46,667 bases of DNA, from the NCBI GenBank assembly GCA_017432345.1, contig JAFRJI010000050.1, positions 1 to 46,667 of the forward strand, written 5' to 3'. The number at the start of each line of letters is the position of its first letter. Positions within the stretch are counted from its first letter, which is position 1. Positions 4,755-14,361 of this stretch are shown one piece after another. The notes beneath the pieces were generated by a model that saw only the letters and a list, made by a program, of their open reading frames with translations, was not told where the DNA came from and searched no databases. Source of the stretch: Bacillota bacterium. GTDB lineage: Bacteria > Bacillota > Clostridia > Peptostreptococcales > Anaerovoracaceae. The position numbers were made by a program, and so were the translations under genes.

Positions 4755-4796
4755 AGAAGTTGATTTTTGTTACCATTATTTTTTAGGAGGAACACT

Positions 4797-7700
4797 ATGT
4801 CAGAAAGTAAAAAGTACTTTGCGACCATGGACGGAAATGAAGCCGCCGCACATATGGCGTACCCGTTCACAGAGGTTGCAGCGATCTATCCGATCACGCC
4901 ATCATCACCTATGGCGACATTGACTGACAAGTGGGCCGCGCAAGGCAGAAAAAACATTTTCGGTCAGGCAGTAACATTGACCGAAATGCAGTCCGAAGCC
5001 GGAGCCATTGGAGCAGTACATGGGGCCATTCAAACCGGAGCTCTATCCACGAGCTACACTTCTTCACAGGGCCTAATGCTAATGATTCCGGTGCTATATA
5101 GAATCGCAGGGGAAAGACACCCGGTCGTGCTGCACGTAGCGGCAAGAACGGTGGGTACCCACGCCATGAGTATTTTTGGCGACCATTCCGACGTAATGGC
5201 ATGTAGGGACACGGGGTTCGCGCAGTACTGCACGGCTTCCGTCCAGGAGATCGTAGACCTGGCGCCTGTCGCACATCTTGCGGCGATCGAATCCAGCATT
5301 CCGTTCATGCACTTCTTCGACGGATTCCGGACCTCGCATGAGATCAACAAGGTCGAGATTCCGGACATGGATGAGATCACTGAACTGATCGATAAGCCAT
5401 CCCTTGCCGATTTCAAGAACCGGGCGCTCAATCCGGAACATCCGACACTGAGAAATACCGTACAGAACGGCGATATCTATTTCCAGGTCAGAGAGGCCAA
5501 CAACCAGGACTACGAAGACCTGCCGGCGATCGTCGAGAAGTACTTCCATAAGATCAACGAGATCACAGGACGCAATTATGAGCTGTTCAATTACTACGGC
5601 GATCCGGAGGCGACGGACATCGTCATCGCCATGGGATCCGTCACCGGCGCGATCCAGCAGGCGGTCGACGCGCTGCGCAAGGAAGGCCGCAAAGTCGGAT
5701 TCCTGCAGGTGCACCTTTTCCGGCCGTTCTCGGCGGAGCATTTCCTCGCCGGCATTCCTGAAACAGTCAAGAGAATCGCAGTTCTCGACCGGTGCAAAGA
5801 CATGGGCGCTCTCGGAGAGCCTCTGTATCAGGATGTCTGTACTGCCATCTTCAAGGCAAAGAAAGACATTGAGATCGTTGGCGGAAGATATGGACTCAGC
5901 TCCAAGGACACGGATCCGGGCCAAATCGTAGCCACATTCGACAACCTGCTTGCGGAGAAGCCGATCAACGGATTCACCATCGGTATCACCGACGACCTGA
6001 CATTCAAGTCGCTGCCGTGCAAGCCGTTCGTGCTGGACGATAACGACATGATCGAGTGTAAGTTCTGGGGTCTCGGCGGAGATGGAACCGTCGGCGCCAA
6101 TAAGAGTACCGTCGAGATCATCAACTCCACGACAGATATGTTCGGGCAGGCGTATTTCGAATACGACGCCAAGAAGACGCTGGGAACGACGAAGTCCCAC
6201 CTGCGCTTCAGCAAAAATCCGATCCGGAGCTCCTACTATGTAAAGAACGCGGACTTCCTCGCGTGCCATAACCACCACTTCCTGGACGAATACTGGATTC
6301 TGGAAGAGGTCAAGCCGGGCGGGACGGTGCTCATCGACTGTCCTTGGACACCGGAGGAAACACTTAAAGAACTGTGGCCGTCCGACAAGAAGCTGTTGGC
6401 TGAACGGAACATCAATCTGTATATCATCGACGCGACCAAGATCGCCGAAGAACTGGGACTGGGGAACCACAAGAACTCCATCCTCCAGGCGGCGTTCTTC
6501 ACCATCATGAAGATTATCCCGGTGGAGCAGGCCGTCGCGGAAATGACCCGTGCAGTCAAGAACAAGTACCGCGCCAAGGGCAACGCGGTCGTCAAGAAGA
6601 ACATCCAGGCCGTCGAAGCCGGCGTTGAGGGCTTTGTAAAAGTCCCGATCCCGCCGGAATGGGCCGACATCGAAGTGGAAGAAGAGATCGAAGATGAGAG
6701 CAGACCTTGGATGATCCGCAAGATCGTCGATCCGATCAACCGCCAGCAGGGCGACACTTTGCCGACGAGCATCCTGGCCACCATGAAAGACGGCCAGATC
6801 GAGATGGGCGTCACGGCGTACGAGAAGCGCGGCCTGGCCGTGCACGTGCCGCAGTGGAAAGCGGAGATCTGCAACCAGTGCAACCGTTGCTCCTTCGTTT
6901 GCCCGCACGCGGCGATCCGCCCATACATCCTGAATGAAGAAGAAGCGTTGAATGCACCGGAGGGTTTTGTAATCACACCGCTGCGGAGCTATAAGGGCAA
7001 AGACGGCAAAAAGCTGTTCTACAGCCTGCAGATATCACAATACGACTGCACCGGATGCGGAAGCTGCATCCCGGTCTGCCCGGCGAAGGGTAAGGCCATC
7101 GAGATGGTCGACGCCAATCCGACCAGCAAGTCGCAGATGCGCTGGGACTACGCGCTGAACCTGAGCGACAAGGGCGACATCTTCTCGCCGTATTCCGTCA
7201 AGGGCAGCCAGTTCCGTCAGCCTCTGGTCGAATTCTCCGCCGCCTGTGCGGGATGCGGGGAAACGCCGTATGCGAAACTGCTGACGCAGCTCTTTGGAGA
7301 CCGGATCTACTGGGCGAACGGCACCGGCTGTTCACAGGCCTGGGGAAGCGGCATGCCGGGAATCCCGTATTGTCTGAACAAGAAGGGACACGGCGTCGCA
7401 TGGACCAACTCGCTGTTTGAGAACAACGCGGAGCTCGCGCTCGGCATGTATCTGTCCGTCAAGCAGCAGAGAGAGAAGCAGCTCGAACTCGTCAGAGAGT
7501 ATTACGAGGAGACTAGAAGCGAGTATGCGATGGATTGGATCGATACATATAACGATATCGATGCTTCACTGGAAGCCACGGATCTGCTCATCGCAGAGCT
7601 GGAAGAAATGGCCGTGGAAGACGCTTTCCAGGAAGACCTGAAGCCGAGATCCTTTGAGCTCGCCAGAAAGATTCTCAGAAGAAAAGATTATCTCTGCAAG

Positions 7701-8339
7701 AAGAGCTTCTGGATGTACGGCGGCGACGGTTGGGCTTACGATATCGGATATGGCGGCCTCGACCACGTCGTAGCGACCGGCGAGGACATTAACGTCTTCA
7801 TCATCGATAACGAAGTTTACTCCAACACGGGCGGACAGAGCTCCAAGGCAACGCCGCTGGGAGCGGTCGCGGAATTCCAGGCGTCCGGTAAGAAGACCAA
7901 GAAGAAGGACATCGCGCAGATCCTGAAGACCTACGGCAATGTTTATGTCGCATCCGTCGCGATGGGCGCCGACATGAACCAGCTGATCAAGGCCATCCGT
8001 GAAGCGGAAGAACACAAAGGCCCGTCGGTCATCGTCGCTTACACGCCATGTACGGTACACGGCATCAAGAGCGGCATGAACAACGTACAGGAAGAGATGA
8101 AGCGCGCGGTCGATTCCGGATACTGGCCGCTCTACCGGTACAACCCGGATAAGGACGAGCAGAAGATGTGCGTCGACTGCAAAGCCCCATGCATGGCTTA
8201 CGAAGACTTCCTGGATGGCGAGAACCGTTACGCGGCCCTGAAGATCACATTCCCGGAGAATGCGGAGAAACTCTTCAAGGAAGCCAGCGATGACGCCATG
8301 GCAAGATACGAGATGTTCAAGCGTCAGGAGAAACTGTAG
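4797..8339 (+). CDS. nifJ: Pyruvate:ferredoxin (flavodoxin) oxidoreductase, single-chain
   Basis: The 1180-residue homodimeric type oxidises pyruvate with CoA to acetyl-CoA and CO2 and passes electrons to ferredoxin in the cytoplasm. Visible parts in order: domain I with YPITPSSPM (31-39); the gamma region; two 4Fe-4S clusters in a ferredoxin-like domain, CNQCNRCSFVCP from Cys692 and CTGCGSCIPVCP from Cys751; ACAGCGETPY, which supplies proximal-cluster cysteines; and the TPP site GDGWAYDIG (976-984) with NTGGQSS from Asn1010. Length is normal. The ATG at 4797 follows AGGAGG by 6 bp; an upstream in-frame TTG lacks such a site. With pta at 11296 it forms the acetyl-CoA/acetyl phosphate branch of fermentation. 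Also known as por. Confidence 0.97.
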   Translation: MSESKKYFATMDGNEAAAHMAYPFTEVAAIYPITPSSPMATLTDKWAAQGRKNIFGQAVTLTEMQSEAGAIGAVHGAIQTGALSTSYTSSQGLMLMIPVLYRIAGERHPVVLHVAARTVGTHAMSIFGDHSDVMACRDTGFAQYCTASVQEIVDLAPVAHLAAIESSIPFMHFFDGFRTSHEINKVEIPDMDEITELIDKPSLADFKNRALNPEHPTLRNTVQNGDIYFQVREANNQDYEDLPAIVEKYFHKINEITGRNYELFNYYGDPEATDIVIAMGSVTGAIQQAVDALRKEGRKVGFLQVHLFRPFSAEHFLAGIPETVKRIAVLDRCKDMGALGEPLYQDVCTAIFKAKKDIEIVGGRYGLSSKDTDPGQIVATFDNLLAEKPINGFTIGITDDLTFKSLPCKPFVLDDNDMIECKFWGLGGDGTVGANKSTVEIINSTTDMFGQAYFEYDAKKTLGTTKSHLRFSKNPIRSSYYVKNADFLACHNHHFLDEYWILEEVKPGGTVLIDCPWTPEETLKELWPSDKKLLAERNINLYIIDATKIAEELGLGNHKNSILQAAFFTIMKIIPVEQAVAEMTRAVKNKYRAKGNAVVKKNIQAVEAGVEGFVKVPIPPEWADIEVEEEIEDESRPWMIRKIVDPINRQQGDTLPTSILATMKDGQIEMGVTAYEKRGLAVHVPQWKAEICNQCNRCSFVCPHAAIRPYILNEEEALNAPEGFVITPLRSYKGKDGKKLFYSLQISQYDCTGCGSCIPVCPAKGKAIEMVDANPTSKSQMRWDYALNLSDKGDIFSPYSVKGSQFRQPLVEFSAACAGCGETPYAKLLTQLFGDRIYWANGTGCSQAWGSGMPGIPYCLNKKGHGVAWTNSLFENNAELALGMYLSVKQQREKQLELVREYYEETRSEYAMDWIDTYNDIDASLEATDLLIAELEEMAVEDAFQEDLKPRSFELARKILRRKDYLCKKSFWMYGGDGWAYDIGYGGLDHVVATGEDINVFIIDNEVYSNTGGQSSKATPLGAVAEFQASGKKTKKKDIAQILKTYGNVYVASVAMGADMNQLIKAIREAEEHKGPSVIVAYTPCTVHGIKSGMNNVQEEMKRAVDSGYWPLYRYNPDKDEQKMCVDCKAPCMAYEDFLDGENRYAALKITFPENAEKLFKEASDDAMARYEMFKRQEKL

Positions 8340-8351
8340 ATAACGATGCAA

Positions 8352-8378
8352 AACTAAGCAAAAAGTGCTAGCTTAGTT
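8352..8378 (+). repeat. Perfect 8-bp inverted repeat after PFOR
   Basis: AACTAAGC at 8352-8359 and GCTTAGTT at 8371-8378 are exact inverted copies with an 11-nt loop. No T-run follows, so this may be an RNA-stabilising hairpin or an operator rather than a terminator. Confidence 0.5.
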
Positions 8379-8405
8379 GACTATAGTCTTAGTTTATGAG
8401 ATACT
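8377..8405 (+). promoter_or_regulatory. Possible promoter for transporter copy 1
   Basis: TTGACT at 8377-8382 and GATACT at 8400-8405 are 17 bp apart. The predicted transcript would begin inside the hairpin at 8403-8440, so promoter and hairpin may be alternative readings of the same DNA. Confidence 0.3.
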
Positions 8406-8440
8406 GTTGTAAATCTGCGAAACCGCATTTTTACAACAGT
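8403..8440 (+). terminator. Strong hairpin between PFOR and the first transporter
   Basis: ACTGTTGTAAA (8403-8413) pairs perfectly with TTTACAACAGT (8430-8440), and an inner TGCG/CGCA stem (8416-8419, 8424-8427) extends it. An AT-rich tail with TTTTT follows, just before the GGAGGAG of the next gene. It likely ends or attenuates the PFOR transcript. Confidence 0.55.
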
Positions 8441-8463
8441 ATTTACTATTTTTGGAGGAGAAT

Positions 8464-9744
8464 ATGACTGCATCACAAATTATCGCATTAGTAATATTTG
8501 TGGCTGTAATCGGTGTCATTGTATCCGAGAAGCTTCACAGAGCGGCCTGCGCCCTGATCGGCGCCGTGCTCCTGATCCTGATCGGCATACTGGAACCTAA
8601 AGAAGCCCTGGGGTTCATCGACTTCAACACCATCGGCGTTCTCATCGGCATGATGATGTTCGTTGCGGTAGTCAAGAATTCCGGAATATTCGAGTATCTT
8701 GCCGTCAAATCGGCAAGAATTGCCAAAGGGGACCCGTGGAAGATCATGGTCTACTTCATGATCATCACAGCAGTCCTTTCCGCATTCCTGGACAACGTTA
8801 CGACCGTACTGCTGATCGGACCTATGACGTTCAGTATCTGTAAGACATTGGAACTGAATCCGATTCCGTTCCTGATGACCCAGATCATTTCCTCGAACGT
8901 CGGCGGAACCGGCACACTCATCGGCGACCCGCCAAACATCATGATCGGCAGCGCCGCGGACATCCCGTTCGTTTCGTTCATCATTTACGACGGCCCGATC
9001 GTTGTGATCACTATGGTGGCGACGGTCATCGCCTTCAAGTTCATCTACAAGAAGGGACTCTCGGTAACGCCTGAGAAGATGGAACTGATCATGCAGATGG
9101 ATGAAAAAGCCGAGATCCGGGACCAGGTGCTCTTCTACAAGAGCATTATCATGATCTTCCTGGTCGCGCTGGCGTTCATCCTGCATGACACGCTGGAACT
9201 GAAGACAAGCGTCATCGCGCTTTCCTGCGCGGCACTGATGATCCTTATCGGCAAGCAGGATGTGGAAGAGACCGTCCATGACGTCGAATGGCCGACCATC
9301 GTGTTCTTCGCCTTCCTGTTCATCGTGGTAGGCGGACTGGAGAAGGTCGGACTGATTCACATGCTGGCCGTAAGCCTGATGGAAGCGACGGGAACGCACT
9401 ATGTCGTGCTCATGATCGTCCTGCTGTGGGTATCGGCGATCTGCTCCGCCGTTCTGGATAACATCCCGTTCGTAGCGACCCTGATCCCGCTGATCCAGCA
9501 GATGCAGGAAGCAGGACTGGATGTGTGGCCGCTCTGGTGGGCGGTATCCATCGGCGCCTGCTTCGGCGGAAACGGAACGATCATTGGCGCATCCGCCAAC
9601 GTCGTTCTGACCGGTATCGCCAACAGAAGGGGATATCCGATCACCTTTATCGACTTCCTGAAGATCGGCGGACCGATGATGCTGATGTCCATCGTTCTAG
9701 CGACTGTCTATCTGCTGATTCTCTTCGGCCGGTATTGGGCATAA
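8464..9744 (+). CDS. ArsB/NhaD-type ion transporter, copy 1
   Basis: A 426-residue, roughly 11-helix protein of the ion transporter superfamily (SLC13/ArsB/NhaD). The inverted-repeat halves each show the diagnostic Asp-Asn pair: AFLDNVTTVLLIGP (DN 110-111) and SAVLDNIPFVATLIP (DN 332-333). Also visible are SSNVGGTGTLIGDPPNIMIGSA and FGGNGTIIGASANVVLTGIA, the re-entrant loops that bind ion or substrate. Members move sodium/protons, arsenite or di/tricarboxylates; the substrate cannot be settled from sequence alone. GGAGGAG precedes the ATG; an upstream in-frame TTG at 8452 overlaps that site and is unlikely. A near-identical copy follows at 9895. Confidence 0.85.
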   Translation: MTASQIIALVIFVAVIGVIVSEKLHRAACALIGAVLLILIGILEPKEALGFIDFNTIGVLIGMMMFVAVVKNSGIFEYLAVKSARIAKGDPWKIMVYFMIITAVLSAFLDNVTTVLLIGPMTFSICKTLELNPIPFLMTQIISSNVGGTGTLIGDPPNIMIGSAADIPFVSFIIYDGPIVVITMVATVIAFKFIYKKGLSVTPEKMELIMQMDEKAEIRDQVLFYKSIIMIFLVALAFILHDTLELKTSVIALSCAALMILIGKQDVEETVHDVEWPTIVFFAFLFIVVGGLEKVGLIHMLAVSLMEATGTHYVVLMIVLLWVSAICSAVLDNIPFVATLIPLIQQMQEAGLDVWPLWWAVSIGACFGGNGTIIGASANVVLTGIANRRGYPITFIDFLKIGGPMMLMSIVLATVYLLILFGRYWA

Positions 9745-9776
9745 CGCGAGGTCACTATTAAGCAAATAAATACCGT

Positions 9777-9808
9777 AAAAGAGCAAGTTACAGACTTGCT
9801 CTTTTTTT
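9777..9808 (+). terminator. Rho-independent terminator after transporter copy 1
   Basis: GAGCAAGT (9781-9788) and ACTTGCTC (9794-9801) form a perfect 8-bp stem with a 5-nt loop, flanked by AAAA and followed by seven T. This is a textbook intrinsic terminator separating the two paralogues. Confidence 0.92.
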
Positions 9809-9823
9809 ATGGAAGAGTATAAT
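9796..9823 (+). promoter_or_regulatory. Promoter for transporter copy 2, overlapping the terminator
   Basis: TTGCTC (9796-9801), inside the right arm of the terminator, and TATAAT (9818-9823) are 16 bp apart. Copy 2 thus seems to have its own promoter. The inverted repeat ATCTTG/CAAGAT (9842-9847, 9852-9857) in the leader could be an operator or a small hairpin. Confidence 0.45.
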
Positions 9824-9894
9824 TCTGTTGGGGTATATTGTATCTTGTATGCAAGATGCTCTGTCATCACGTAATCATATATGGAGGCATAAAA

Positions 9895-11175
9895 ATGACT
9901 GCACCACAAATTATCGCGTTGGCTATTTTCGTAGCCGTCATCGGAGTCATCGTATCCGAGAAACTGCACAGAGCGGCTTGTGCGTTGATCGGTGCGATGC
10001 TTTTGATTCTGATCGGAATTCTGGAGCCGAAAGAGGCTTTGGGATTCATCGACTTCAACACGATCGGCGTACTGATCGGCATGATGATGTTCGTCGCCGT
10101 CGTAAAGAACTCCGGAATCTTTGAATACCTTGCTGTGAAAGCCGCCCGGATCGCGAAAGGGGACCCTTGGCGGATCATGGTGTACTTCATGATCATCACC
10201 GCCGTTCTATCCGCTTTCCTGGACAACGTCACGACCGTACTGCTGATCGGCCCGATGACATTCAGCATCTGCAAAACCCTCGAACTGAATCCAATCCCGT
10301 TCCTGATGACGCAGATCATCTCATCGAACGTCGGCGGAACGGCGACCCTGATCGGCGACCCTCCGAACATCATGCTCGGCAGCGCGGCGGACATCACGTT
10401 CCTCCAGTTCATTCTGTATGACGGACCGATCGTCGTTATCGTTATGGCTGCGACGATCCTCGGATTCCGCTTCCTCTATCACAAAGGCCTGACGGTCACG
10501 CCGGAAAAGATGGCGCTGATCATGAAGATGGATGAAAAGGAAGAAATCCGGGATCAGGTACTCTTCTACAAGAGCATCGTCATGATCTGCCTTGTAGCGA
10601 CCGCGTTCATCCTGCATGACACATTGGGACTGAGAACCAGCGTCATCGCACTTTCCTGCGCAGCGCTGATGATCCTCATCGGCAAACAGGACGTGGAGGA
10701 GACCGTTCACGATGTCGAATGGCCGACCATCGTATTCTTCGCCTTCCTGTTCATCGTGGTCGGCGGATTGGAGAAGGTCGGTATCATACACATGATGGCA
10801 GAAGCCATGATCAGCGCGACGGGCACGCACTACGTGATCCTGATGCTCGCGATCCTGTGGGTATCGGCACTCTGCTCCGCGGTGCTGGATAACATCCCGT
10901 TCGTAGCAACGCTGATTCCTTTGATCCAGACGATGGCTTCCGAAGGCATCGATGTATGGCCGCTCTGGTGGGCCGTATCCATCGGCGCATGCTTCGGCGG
11001 AAACGGAACGATCATCGGCGCATCGGCCAACGTCGTACTGACTGGTATCGCCAACCGCAAAGGCTATCCGATCACGTTCATCGACTTCCTGAAGATCGGT
11101 GGACCGATGATGCTGATGTCCATCGTATTGGCAAGCTTCTATCTGCTTGTACGATTCGGCGGATATTGGAGCTGA
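9895..11175 (+). CDS. ArsB/NhaD-type ion transporter, copy 2
   Basis: A second 426-residue transporter, colinear with copy 1 and matching it at most positions by eye, including both Asp-Asn motifs, GGTATLIGDPPNIMLGSA and FGGNGTIIGASANVVL. Differences cluster in the loop after the fifth helix (ITFLQFILYDG against IPFVSFIIYDG) and near AEAMISATGTHY. This is a tandem duplication followed by modest divergence. Each copy has its own ribosome site (GGAGG at 9883-9887 here), and a terminator plus a new promoter lies between, so the copies can be regulated separately. They could differ in ion specificity or expression condition. The ATG at 9895 is preferred over the upstream in-frame start at 9838. 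Confidence 0.85.
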   Translation: MTAPQIIALAIFVAVIGVIVSEKLHRAACALIGAMLLILIGILEPKEALGFIDFNTIGVLIGMMMFVAVVKNSGIFEYLAVKAARIAKGDPWRIMVYFMIITAVLSAFLDNVTTVLLIGPMTFSICKTLELNPIPFLMTQIISSNVGGTATLIGDPPNIMLGSAADITFLQFILYDGPIVVIVMAATILGFRFLYHKGLTVTPEKMALIMKMDEKEEIRDQVLFYKSIVMICLVATAFILHDTLGLRTSVIALSCAALMILIGKQDVEETVHDVEWPTIVFFAFLFIVVGGLEKVGIIHMMAEAMISATGTHYVILMLAILWVSALCSAVLDNIPFVATLIPLIQTMASEGIDVWPLWWAVSIGACFGGNGTIIGASANVVLTGIANRKGYPITFIDFLKIGGPMMLMSIVLASFYLLVRFGGYWS

Positions 11176-11225
11176 TGCCGGAAACAGATTGGCATGAAAC
11201 AGACGGACACAAACCGGCGAAAATG

Positions 11226-11234
11226 TGATATAAT
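11226..11234 (+). promoter_or_regulatory. Extended -10 promoter of pta
   Basis: TGATATAAT fits the extended -10 form TGnTATAAT; no convincing -35 is seen 17 bp upstream. The same nonamer recurs before the CDF gene at 14648-14656. The pta ATG is at 11296. Confidence 0.5.
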
Positions 11235-11295
11235 ATTTTGTTGTGGACATAGGAACAACACAACTGATGCTAATAATGAGAAAGGAACGAATACG

Positions 11296-12273
11296 ATGTT
11301 TGAGAATTTGATTGAGATCTTAAAAGAAAACCCAAGAAAAATCGTTTTTACAGAAGGACCGGACGCGAGAATTTTGGAAGCCGCTGACCGCCTGAAGAAG
11401 AGTGGATTCCTGACACCGGTACTGGTCGGTAACGTGGAAGAAGTCAAGGCCGCGGCAGCAGCCGGCAATTTCGATATCGAAGGTCTGGAAATTCTGGATC
11501 CTTTGACATATGATGACATGGACGCTATGGTCGCGAAAATGGTCGAGCTGAGAAAAGGCAAGATGACAGAAGAACAGTGCTCCGATGCTCTGAAGAAGGG
11601 CAACTATTTCGGAACGATGCTGGTCAAGATGGGCGTTGCGGACGCACTGCTGGGCGGTGCCACCTATTCCACAGCGGATACCGTAAGACCGGCACTGCAG
11701 CTGATCAAGACCAAGCCGGGCAACAAGAGTGTATCCTCCGTATTTATCATGGTAAGAGAACATGAAGACGGAAGCGCACCGGAGATCCTGGGCATGGGCG
11801 ACTGCGCCATCAACATCAAGCCGTCACCGGAAGAGATCGCGGAGTGCGCGATTGAATCCGCCAGAACTGCGGCTATCTTCGGCGTAGACCCGAAGGTCGC
11901 GATGCTGTCCTATTCCACCAAAGGCTCCGGCGCCGGCGAAGACGTCGACAAGATGGTCGAAGCCACGAAGCTGGCGAAGGAAGCAGCTCCGGAACTGGAC
12001 ATCGACGGGGAACTGCAGTTTGACGCCGCCGTATCACCGGTTGTAGCGCAGACGAAGTGCAAAGACTCCAAGGTCGCCGGCCAGGCGAACGTATTCATCT
12101 TCCCGGACATCAACGCCGGAAACATCGGATACAAGATCGCGCAGAGACTGGGCGGATTCGATGCGTATGGTCCTGTACTGCAGGGTCTGAACGCGCCGAT
12201 CAACGACCTGTCCAGAGGCTGCAACGCGGATGAAGTCTACACGATGGCGATCATCACAGCGGCGCTGGCATAA
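11296..12273 (+). CDS. pta: Phosphate acetyltransferase
   Basis: A 325-residue short-form phosphotransacetylase, the usual length for Firmicutes. It interconverts acetyl-CoA plus phosphate and acetyl phosphate plus CoA. Visible family features are KIVFTEGPDARILEAA at the start, LGGATYSTADTVRPALQ in the middle, and MLSYSTKGSGAGEDVDK with VFIFPDINAGNIGYKIAQR near the end, all part of the CoA/phosphate site. The GAAAGGA site 9 bp before the ATG fixes the start. No acetate kinase follows; ackA must lie elsewhere. Located after PFOR and the two transporters, it completes the local acetyl-CoA branch. Confidence 0.95.
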   Translation: MFENLIEILKENPRKIVFTEGPDARILEAADRLKKSGFLTPVLVGNVEEVKAAAAAGNFDIEGLEILDPLTYDDMDAMVAKMVELRKGKMTEEQCSDALKKGNYFGTMLVKMGVADALLGGATYSTADTVRPALQLIKTKPGNKSVSSVFIMVREHEDGSAPEILGMGDCAINIKPSPEEIAECAIESARTAAIFGVDPKVAMLSYSTKGSGAGEDVDKMVEATKLAKEAAPELDIDGELQFDAAVSPVVAQTKCKDSKVAGQANVFIFPDINAGNIGYKIAQRLGGFDAYGPVLQGLNAPINDLSRGCNADEVYTMAIITAALA

Positions 12274-12305
12274 GCTCAGTCAGGCAGTAGCATTAATAAA
12301 AGACG

Positions 12306-12340
12306 AAAAAAAGGACTGTTGCGTGAGCAGCAGTCCTTTT
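12306..12340. terminator. Bidirectional terminator between pta and the CoA ligase
   Basis: A 10-bp stem (GGACTGTTGC at 12313-12322, GCAGCAGTCC at 12327-12336, one T-G pair) with a GTGA loop. TTTT follows on the plus strand; seven A at 12306-12312 give a U-run for the leftward gene. It serves both convergent genes. Confidence 0.88.
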
Positions 12341-12352
12341 GTAATGGAATCG

Positions 12353-13990
12353 TTAGTGTTTCTCCACTTCCTTGGCGACGATGCCGTCCGCGTTGTACAT
12401 CTTACGCAGGAGCGGCTTCTCGATCTTGCCGGTCGGGTTACGAGGAACATCCGCGAAGATGATCTTGCGCGGGCGCTTGTACCGCGGCAGCTCCAGGCAA
12501 AATTCTTCGATGGCTTCTTCGTAGGTGTCGCGGCCGTCCTTGAGTTCAATGATGGCTGCGGCGATCTCTCCCAGACGCGGATCCGGCAGCCCGATGACGG
12601 CAACGTCCTTGATGTCGTCGTGCTTGCGCAGGAAGTCTTCGATCTGGACCGGGTATATATTTTCACCGCCGGAGATGATGACGTCCTTCTTACGGTCAAC
12701 AAGATAGATGAATCCGTCTTCGTCTTCCTCGGCCATGTCTCCAGTGTAGAGCCATTCGCCGTCCAGTACTTCCGCGGTCGCTTCCGGATCGTTGTAGTAG
12801 CAGGTCATGACGCCAGGGCCGCGGACGGCCAGCTCGCCAACTTCACCTTGCTTGACATCGTTGTGATCCGGATCGACGATCCGCGTATCCCAGCCGTATC
12901 CGGCCTTACCAATTGCACCGACCTTGTGAATGTTCTCCACGCCGAGGTGGACGCAGCCCGGTCCGATGGATTCGCTGAGACCGTAGTTCGTATCGTATTC
13001 ATGATTCGGGAAATGTTCTTTCCAGCGCTTGATCAAGCTTGGTGGCACCGGCTGCGCGCCGATATGCATCAGCCGCCACTGATCGAGATGGTAATCCCGT
13101 ATATTGACGTCGCCGCTGTCGATGGCGTCCAGGATATCCTGTGCCCATGGAACCAGCAGCCAGACGATGGTGCAGCGCTCTTCCGAAGCGGCCTGCAGAA
13201 TGAATTCCGGCTTGGTGCCTTTGAGAATGACGGCTTTGCTTCCGGAATACAGGCTGCCGAACCAGTGCATCTTCGCGCCGGTATGATAGAGCGGCGGGAT
13301 ACAGAGGAAGACATCGTTCTTTGTCTGGTGATGGTGGTTTTGCTCGCACTTTGCGGAATGGCTCAGGGAGCGGTGCTTGTGCAGAATCGCCTTTGGGAAT
13401 CCGGTCGTGCCGGATGAGAAGTAGATCGCTCCGTCGTCATCGTCGGTCAGATTAATGTCCGGTGCATGGGAAGAACAGTACTCGATGTACTGATCGTAGC
13501 TGTCCGCGAAAGTAGGGCAGTCCTCGCCGACGTACAGCAATGTGGAGATTTGCGGGATCTGGTCGCAGATGCTTTCGATACGGCCGACGAATTCCGCGCC
13601 GAAGACCAGTCCGGTGCAGTCTGCCTTGCGCAGGCAGTACTTGATTTCATCCGCGGTATATCGGAAATTGAGTGGAACGGCCAGTGCTCCGGTCTTCAGG
13701 ATCCCGAAGTAGACCGGCAGCCAGTCCAGACAGTTCATCATGAGAATGGCGATCTTGTCGCCTTTTTTTATGCCGCGCGTCAGCAGCAGGTTCGCGAACC
13801 GGTTCGCCTTGACGTCGAACTCGTGCCAGGTCATTTCCTTCCGGCCGATCTCGTGCGGATTGGATTCGATCAGATCGTATTCTTTCCATGTTCTCCGTGC
13901 GTTCAGTTCGGCTTCCGGATTGATTTCGACCAGGCTGATGTCGAATGGGAATTCCTTGGCGTTGCGCGCAAGTAAGTCAGTGATTGGCAT
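12353..13990 (-). CDS. AMP-forming acyl-/aryl-CoA ligase under T-box control
   Basis: A 545-residue class I adenylate-forming enzyme that activates a carboxylic acid with ATP and CoA. Motifs: phosphate loop SSGTTGFPK (192-200); YGLSESIGPG; the hinge YTGDMAEEDEDGFIYLVDRKKD; GGENIYPVQIE; and the catalytic lysine Lys522 in NPTGKIEK. The acid is not predictable by eye; annotation pipelines would probably say long-chain fatty acid. The start has a strong AGGAGG site just upstream. Expression is controlled by a T-box leader (14010-14326) whose specifier reads UAC, so it should be switched on when tyrosyl-tRNA is uncharged. That points to an aromatic acid, for example 4-hydroxyphenylacetate, as substrate; this is an inference. 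Confidence 0.9.
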   Translation of the reverse strand: MPITDLLARNAKEFPFDISLVEINPEAELNARRTWKEYDLIESNPHEIGRKEMTWHEFDVKANRFANLLLTRGIKKGDKIAILMMNCLDWLPVYFGILKTGALAVPLNFRYTADEIKYCLRKADCTGLVFGAEFVGRIESICDQIPQISTLLYVGEDCPTFADSYDQYIEYCSSHAPDINLTDDDDGAIYFSSGTTGFPKAILHKHRSLSHSAKCEQNHHHQTKNDVFLCIPPLYHTGAKMHWFGSLYSGSKAVILKGTKPEFILQAASEERCTIVWLLVPWAQDILDAIDSGDVNIRDYHLDQWRLMHIGAQPVPPSLIKRWKEHFPNHEYDTNYGLSESIGPGCVHLGVENIHKVGAIGKAGYGWDTRIVDPDHNDVKQGEVGELAVRGPGVMTCYYNDPEATAEVLDGEWLYTGDMAEEDEDGFIYLVDRKKDVIISGGENIYPVQIEDFLRKHDDIKDVAVIGLPDPRLGEIAAAIIELKDGRDTYEEAIEEFCLELPRYKRPRKIIFADVPRNPTGKIEKPLLRKMYNADGIVAKEVEKH

Positions 13991-14009
13991 ATAATTACCT
14001 CCTAGTTAT

Positions 14010-14042
14010 AATAAAAGCCCTCTGTCAGTTCTGACAGAGGGC
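14010..14042 (-). terminator. T-box-controlled terminator hairpin
   Basis: GCCCTCTGTCA and TGACAGAGGGC (14017-14042) form a perfect 11-bp stem with a GAAC loop, followed leftward by TTTTATTAT. It competes with the antiterminator containing the T-box sequence. The AGGAGG of the CoA ligase lies just after it. Confidence 0.93.
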
Positions 14043-14326
14043 GAATGTCTCGCGGTACCACCTCTGGTTCATCGCACCCTCACGGTATGCGACCTCAACA
14101 GGTACGGCAATCCTGAAACACAGTCTTGCTTATACCTTCGTGCTGTGACGGGCACACCCGTTGTAGCCTACTGAGCGCGTCGCGTTATTAATCGATATCG
14201 AACCGCCGTTCGGTACAAAGCTCTCGGAATGTATTCAGCCTGCTTTCGTTTGTTGCCTCGCACCATCCGGCAACTCTCTGGGAAACTACCTGCAGGTCTA
14301 CTTGTTTCCGGTCATCGCATTTAACG
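14010..14326 (-). promoter_or_regulatory. T-box riboswitch leader, tyrosine specifier (UAC)
   Basis: Read leftward, the leader has every T-box element. Stem I: CGGAA (14306-14310) pairs with UUCCG (14225-14229); the specifier loop has AAGUAGA on one side and GAA-UAC-A on the other, with the codon at 14231-14233; above it CCUGC pairs with GCAGG; AGAGAG and GGUGCGA give the apical module. Near the end, GGUGGUACCGCG (about 14051-14062) is the conserved T-box, with UGGU (14057-14060) to pair with an ACCA tRNA end, as expected for tRNA-Tyr. A terminator follows. UAC directly after GAA is the usual specifier position. Confidence 0.92.
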
Positions 14327-14332
14327 TAACAT

Positions 14333-14361
14333 ATTATACACATGCGCCTGTGCTTTTGCAA
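14333..14361 (-). promoter_or_regulatory. Promoter of the T-box transcript
   Basis: Leftward TTGCAA (14356-14361) and TATAAT (14333-14338) have a 17-bp spacer, placing the transcript start near 14326 and giving a leader of about 335 nt before the start codon. Confidence 0.85.

Follow-up and report, generated by a model that had tools for sequence, protein, structure and literature searches.

Why should a leader RNA that senses tyrosine tRNA stand before a gene for a CoA ligase? The question is raised by a stretch of 46,667 nucleotides from a Bacillota bacterium (the window, which is contig C35 of a 1.8-Mb assembly that is 81.8% complete), in which an initial annotation made from the letters alone described a complete T-box upstream of an AMP-forming CoA ligase at positions 12353–14361 and proposed that the ligase serves a salvage route from arylacetates to tyrosine. 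The leader of Bacillus subtilis tyrS is a tyrosine-type T-box; unlike the tyrosine T-boxes on tyrS or shikimate genes, the element described here has a CoA ligase as its target and, in relatives, an operon of symporter, ligase and iorAB. The answer favoured here, with good though not full confidence and from sequence comparison, is that the tyrosine T-box controls by antitermination a ligase for a route from arylacetate to tyrosine, which would run through the indolepyruvate-type oxidoreductase IorAB (IOR) and a transamination.

The leader scores 101.8 bits against the Rfam T-box family RF00230, whose gathering score is 93 (E 1.9e-21, model positions 1–219), and is the sole Rfam match within the window at gathering scores. 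It shares with tyrosine T-boxes the full model match, a UAC specifier, UGGU and a terminator, and the initial annotation had both the arrangement and its coordinates right (Table 1). For the terminator hairpin, free folding gives z = -4.18, and none of 200 shuffles is as stable. The Stem I stretch folded by itself reaches z = -1.45 and owes its support to the RF00230 model match, not to free folding; the antiterminator stretch by itself reaches z = -0.56, being visible in the RF00230 model alignment and not favoured by free folding. In the specifier strand, CUGAAUACAUUCCG, UAC stands directly after GAA, a reading supported both by the covariance search and by the relatives. The triplets AUA, ACA and CAU were ruled out as specifiers, since the GAA anchor and the loop-end rule of the TBDB, as excerpted from PMC7778990, each point to UAC, and this triplet is conserved in relatives. 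The genome encodes a tRNA-Tyr with anticodon GUA and an A73-CCA end, so that the UGGU of the T-box sequence fits this tRNA, as had been proposed.

Table 1. Features of the ligase locus and of the second tyrosine leader in the same genome; positions refer to the window unless a contig is named.
Feature	Position	Strand	Basis
Promoter-like TTGCAA-17-TATAAT (sigma-70-like) of the leader	14361-14333	(-)	Read directly from sequence
T-box leader RNA, tyrosine type	14324-14034	(-)	RF00230 covariance match
Specifier segment GAA-UAC-A (GAATACA), codon UAC (Tyr)	14236-14230	(-)	Sequence and model match
T-box sequence AGGTGGTACCGCG / AGGUGGUACCGCG with UGGU	14063-14051	(-)	Sequence and model match
Intrinsic terminator: stem of 11 pairs plus U run	14042-14014	(-)	Folding and sequence
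AMP-forming acyl-CoA ligase, 545 aa	13990-12353	(-)	Pfam PF00501 AMP-binding and PF13193 AMP-binding_C
Second tyrosine T-box, before sodium:solute symporter	C7:20952-20686 (L180)	(-)	100.1 bits, GAAUAC

The product of the gene behind this leader carries both of its Pfam domains above gathering score, which makes its fold hardly doubtful, and none of the best 25 of its 108 NCBIfam matches exceeds the respective cut-off, the long-chain-fatty-acid–CoA ligase subfamily PRK06187 (NF004837) reaching 415 bits against a cut-off of 476. Among the matches listed, long-chain fatty-acid ligases are the best-scoring models, below their cut-offs, and among solved relatives fatty-acid ligases are nearest by sequence, followed by feruloyl- and 4-coumarate-CoA ligases. 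A fatty-acid activity would be compatible with the sequence; the function proposed here is that of a 4-hydroxyphenylacetate-CoA ligase. The enzyme shares AMP-binding Pfam matches with the phenylacetate-type ligase PaaK (TIGR02155), unlike which it is of the longer PF00501/PF13193 type. It stands alone, with no pathway genes alongside. On the opposite strand the window carries a pyruvate:ferredoxin oxidoreductase, two tandem transporters of the CitMHS family and a phosphotransacetylase (4767–12273, +); the oxidoreductase and the phosphotransacetylase were considered as partners and set aside on account of their strand and because the former is a PFOR and not an IOR.

Candidate partners are found elsewhere in the genome. 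It contains four T-boxes, which precede the ligase, a symporter of the SSF family, a TrpB-like gene and an isoleucyl-tRNA-synthetase-like gene (named by reading, the symporter by its Pfam match, SSF 176.8 bits). The symporter, encoded on contig C7 behind its own tyrosine T-box, is a candidate arylacetate transporter. The iorAB genes, for which the initial annotation had suggested looking, are present as well, on a separate contig from the ligase: IorA scores 685.7 bits (cut-off 650.9) and lies in an iorA-iorB-paaK-ACT cluster on C51 (L178), on which no T-box was found and in which the proteins adjoining IorA were assigned by their similarity to those of a congeneric genome, G063. Chorismate synthase is present, and neither TyrA (PF02153) nor prephenate dehydratase (PF00800) was found by profile match in this 81.8% complete assembly, so that the arylacetate route may be the main source of tyrosine besides uptake. 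The chorismate synthase itself lies within an 846-aa frame (L201 10959–13499, -) that is probably a fusion, as is probably an 861-aa frame in the relative G008 (L203 12697–15282, +); in G013 the enzyme is separate, with 360 aa.

What is scattered in the window's genome is joined in some relatives. In G063 one strand carries, in this order, a UAC T-box (109.1 bits), the symporter, the ligase (75% identical to the window ligase), IorA (715 bits, cut-off 650.9), IorB (274, cut-off 230), a PaaK-like ligase (539 bits, below the TIGR02155 cut-off of 646.3), an ACT-domain protein and a class I aminotransferase. This genome, whose assembly has 8% contamination, also carries TyrA and prephenate dehydratase. 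The full gene order, from T-box to aminotransferase, is repeated at locus L289 of G375, which belongs to another family. A rapidly built tree with 82 ligases pairs the window ligase with the one from the G063 operon (98, starred) and groups both with the iorAB-linked ligases of L122, L136, L138 and L304 (97, starred); two ligases of Ruminococcus flavefaciens, a species with a T-box-free relative of 73% identity, form a separate group. A further ligase tree omits six of the 60 class loci described below, from which no protein had been extracted. The symporter of the window's genome is 65–76% identical to seven that adjoin ligases (L126, L130, L150, L162, L165, L171 and L174) and only about 40% identical to the ligase-adjacent symporters of G063, L119 and L133, which points to two symporter types accompanying the ligase, one of them shared with the window's genome.

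The wider distribution was surveyed in 391 genomes of the class, of which 147, from 82 of 223 genera, encode the ligase (E <= 1e-150). Sixty of these 147 loci were taken with their flanks for reading of gene context; high-scoring loci were favoured in the choice, and the fractions are therefore not unbiased. In 19 of them a T-box precedes the ligase or a symporter-ligase pair, each above gathering score and each with UAC, and the other 41 show none. Behind the ligase and on its strand, iorA is found in 15 of the 19 T-box loci versus 10 of the 41 T-box-free ones (Fisher p 1.5e-4), the two features not being linked in an independent-pairs test. The remaining four T-box loci comprise one cut by a contig end (L297) and three with no IOR gene behind the ligase (L292, L309, L313). 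The gap between ligase and iorA is below 30 bases in seven of the eight runs inspected and about 260 in L306. Seven loci (L283, L284, L288, L293, L296, L299 and L306) have ligase, iorA and iorB in a row and then no further pathway gene, PaaK included, so that there this ligase would be the activating enzyme that feeds IOR. The gene order of relatives, with iorA recurring behind ligases that have a T-box, supports the proposed route from arylacetate to tyrosine.

A second set of relatives consists of 61 named loci (L115–L177 less L137 and L144; 69–75% identity), taken as lying mostly outside the genus. A symporter of the ligase-associated family occurs in 25 of them, iorA lies downstream of the ligase in nine, and a T-box above gathering score stands on the ligase or its operon in four (L126, L130, L150 and L173), all reading UACA; the other 57 show no T-box. 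In L150, as in L290, one extra base follows GAA, and UAC was assigned from the 3' side only. L173 has a further T-box (12143–12402, +) some 4.5 kb past its ligase, which at 70 bits stays below gathering score. Eleven Ruminococcus-type loci have another context, which differs from the iorAB operons: a thioesterase-like gene (PaaI-like by eye) follows the ligase relative in L139, L140, L142, L143, L154 and L156–L161. Given that the ligase is common in the class and that most loci show no T-box (41 of 60 in the class, 57 of 61 among the named ones), it may have other roles.

Within the genus, the ligase (E <= 1e-60) was found in 41 of 49 genomes and IOR alpha above cut-off in 43, the window's own included. 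A GAAUACA T-box directly precedes the ligase in 16 genomes, again including the window's own; the pairing of T-box and ligase sought in relatives recurs in the genus, the named loci and the class. For 16 genus loci without such a T-box, an Rfam scan loosened to E values of up to 1 showed none either. Among the genus T-boxes whose loci were fetched, a part of those found, leaders reading UAC precede the ligase or the symporter, and the remainder precede tryptophan, isoleucine, threonine and asparagine-synthetase-like genes, named by reading. T-boxes before TrpB-like or TrpD-like genes, apparently of the tryptophan type, lie at C22 41967–42209 of the window's genome and in L216, L222, L229 and L249.

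The genus survey also bears on the missing prephenate branch. TyrA above cut-off is absent from 14 of the 16 genomes with a ligase T-box versus three of the 19 without (35 genomes; Fisher 3e-5), a pattern weakened by relatedness and by many incomplete assemblies. Part of the group without a T-box carries a distant ligase lineage (G019 and G031 in the ligase tree); within the close lineage, leaving out G063, the counts are 14 of 16 versus two of 11 (p 8.5e-4). The 35 genomes are those remaining of the 41 with the ligase after omission of G025 (upstream DNA cut), G035 (a fragment), G062, G066, G068 and G006. The last four show no T-box core in the fetched upstream DNA, the ligase start being unlocated in G062 and G066; TyrA is present in these two and absent from G068 and G006. 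The state of the ligase T-box changes three times on the ligase tree, and the independent-pairs test has no power there. The idea that a ligase T-box means loss of TyrA was rejected outside the genus, where TyrA above cut-off is found in 18 of the 19 T-box class genomes and in 54 of all 60, and independent-pairs tests gave no support for it. Since 18 of 19 keep prephenate dehydrogenase, the route is better read as a salvage option in those carriers, and most other clostridia examined that have the operon would use it for salvage induced by starvation, alongside the shikimate route.

Read together, gene order and regulation in the relatives suggest the following course. Uncharged tRNA-Tyr would pair with the UAC specifier and with the UGGU bulge, the terminator would then fail to form, and the ligase would be made. 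The separately encoded symporter, under its own tyrosine T-box, would perhaps import 4-hydroxyphenylacetate, and the ligase would activate an arylacetate, most likely this one, to its CoA ester. IorAB with reduced ferredoxin would carboxylate the aryl-acetyl-CoA to 4-hydroxyphenylpyruvate, which an aminotransferase would convert to tyrosine. The direction of flux is likewise predicted, the T-box arguing for an anabolic one.

Chemistry of this kind has precedents. Methanococcus maripaludis uses aryl acids via IOR according to excerpts of PMC3462420, a use also stated in part of PMC4162585, and phenylalanine was made from phenylacetate in rumen cultures, as cited in a passage of PMC7356843. The route proposed here resembles that of M. 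maripaludis in being based on IOR and that of the rumen cultures in starting from an arylacetate, and differs from both in its occurrence in Clostridia, its AMP-forming ligase, its SSF symporter and its T-box control. In gut Bacteroides, IOR adjoins an AMP-forming arylacetate-CoA ligase, and the excerpted text of PMC13285125, which also describes enzymes of the IOR and PFOR types with arylacetate ligases and kinases next to them, leaves biosynthesis versus breakdown as a suggestion. The juxtaposition of IOR and AMP-forming ligase is the same as here, a resemblance of gene position; a T-box distinguishes the clostridial loci, none being mentioned in the Discussion of that paper as excerpted. 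A search of titles and abstract beginnings in the open-licence PMC literature found no report of a T-box before an arylacetate ligase, an IOR or such a symporter, and passages of PMC6167468, PMC5897657 and PMC2700814 did not bear decisively on the matter. Both T-boxes and the arylacetate route are known, and it is their coupling for which that literature yielded no report.

The choice of substrate is where the proposed route is most open to another reading. The ligase might prefer phenylacetate or accept several arylacetates, the operon serving phenylalanine as well as tyrosine, and perhaps tryptophan, with the tyrosine tRNA as common starvation signal. This appears possible, if on the doubtful side. 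The breadth would agree with the enzymes beside IOR- and PFOR-type oxidoreductases in the excerpted parts of PMC13285125, where ligase and kinases act on phenylacetate and 4-hydroxyphenylacetate and some on indoleacetate, and a service to both amino acids with the lack of prephenate dehydratase in 15 of the 16 genus genomes that have a ligase T-box and with the PaaK located downstream in 14 of the 25 loci of the class that have iorA behind the ligase. Against a role in phenylalanine or tryptophan supply, every T-box before ligase, symporter or ligase-iorAB among the fetched loci reads UAC, none being of the phenylalanine or tryptophan type.

T-boxes frequently regulate amino acid uptake, and the symporter might import tyrosine or a peptide, the ligase being an unrelated acyl-CoA ligase that gained its T-box by chance or transfer. 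The prominence of long-chain fatty-acid models among the listed matches, all under their cut-offs, would suit such an enzyme, as would the many relatives in which no iorAB adjoins it; the recurrent ligase-iorA-iorB runs with short gaps, the occurrence of one T-box type across several families and the adjacency of symporter and ligase make this explanation unlikely. That the genes run oxidatively in a Stickland fashion, from tyrosine to arylacetate for energy, is very improbable, for even if amino acid fermentation employs oxidoreductases from this superfamily and every step of the Clostridium scatologenes pathway is termed reversible, a T-box that induces when charged tRNA-Tyr is scarce is ill-suited to tyrosine breakdown, AMP-forming ligases are argued to favour acyl-CoA synthesis, and a biosynthetic role is suggested for the Bacteroides IOR-ligase pair (all but the T-box argument as excerpted from PMC13285125).

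The tyrosine T-box on an IOR-ligase operon is a genetic sign of an anabolic role there, and a testable substrate is offered for a ligase present in 147 of the 391 sampled class genomes. If the tyrosine route is real, 4-hydroxyphenylacetate, the precursor of p-cresol, would also be a source of tyrosine passed between gut bacteria. The records of many relatives name gut or rumen samples as source. The broader proposition is that a dedicated, tRNA-Tyr-regulated recycling of tyrosine operates in many of the gut Clostridia that metagenomes have revealed, with symporter, a new family of 4-hydroxyphenylacetate-CoA ligases and IorAB, on the arylacetate of their neighbours, the prephenate branch having been replaced in the lineage of the window, which would hence depend on its neighbours' waste; this is advanced tentatively, as a picture that falls somewhat short of probable.

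Some minor features of the ligase loci may be added. The ligase of G002 (L021 / G002:C137) contains one in-frame TGA. In two genus genomes the T-box-free ligase has a pan motif RNA (RF01749) immediately downstream, at L028 1378–1269 (-) and L030 3241–3350 (+). Several ligase leaders share at their -35 region a stretch like TTGCAAAAGCA, which in the window lies at 14351–14361 and is a possible operator, and repeats resembling TTAAAG or GCGTTA, likewise possible operators, occur at some T-box-free ligase promoters.
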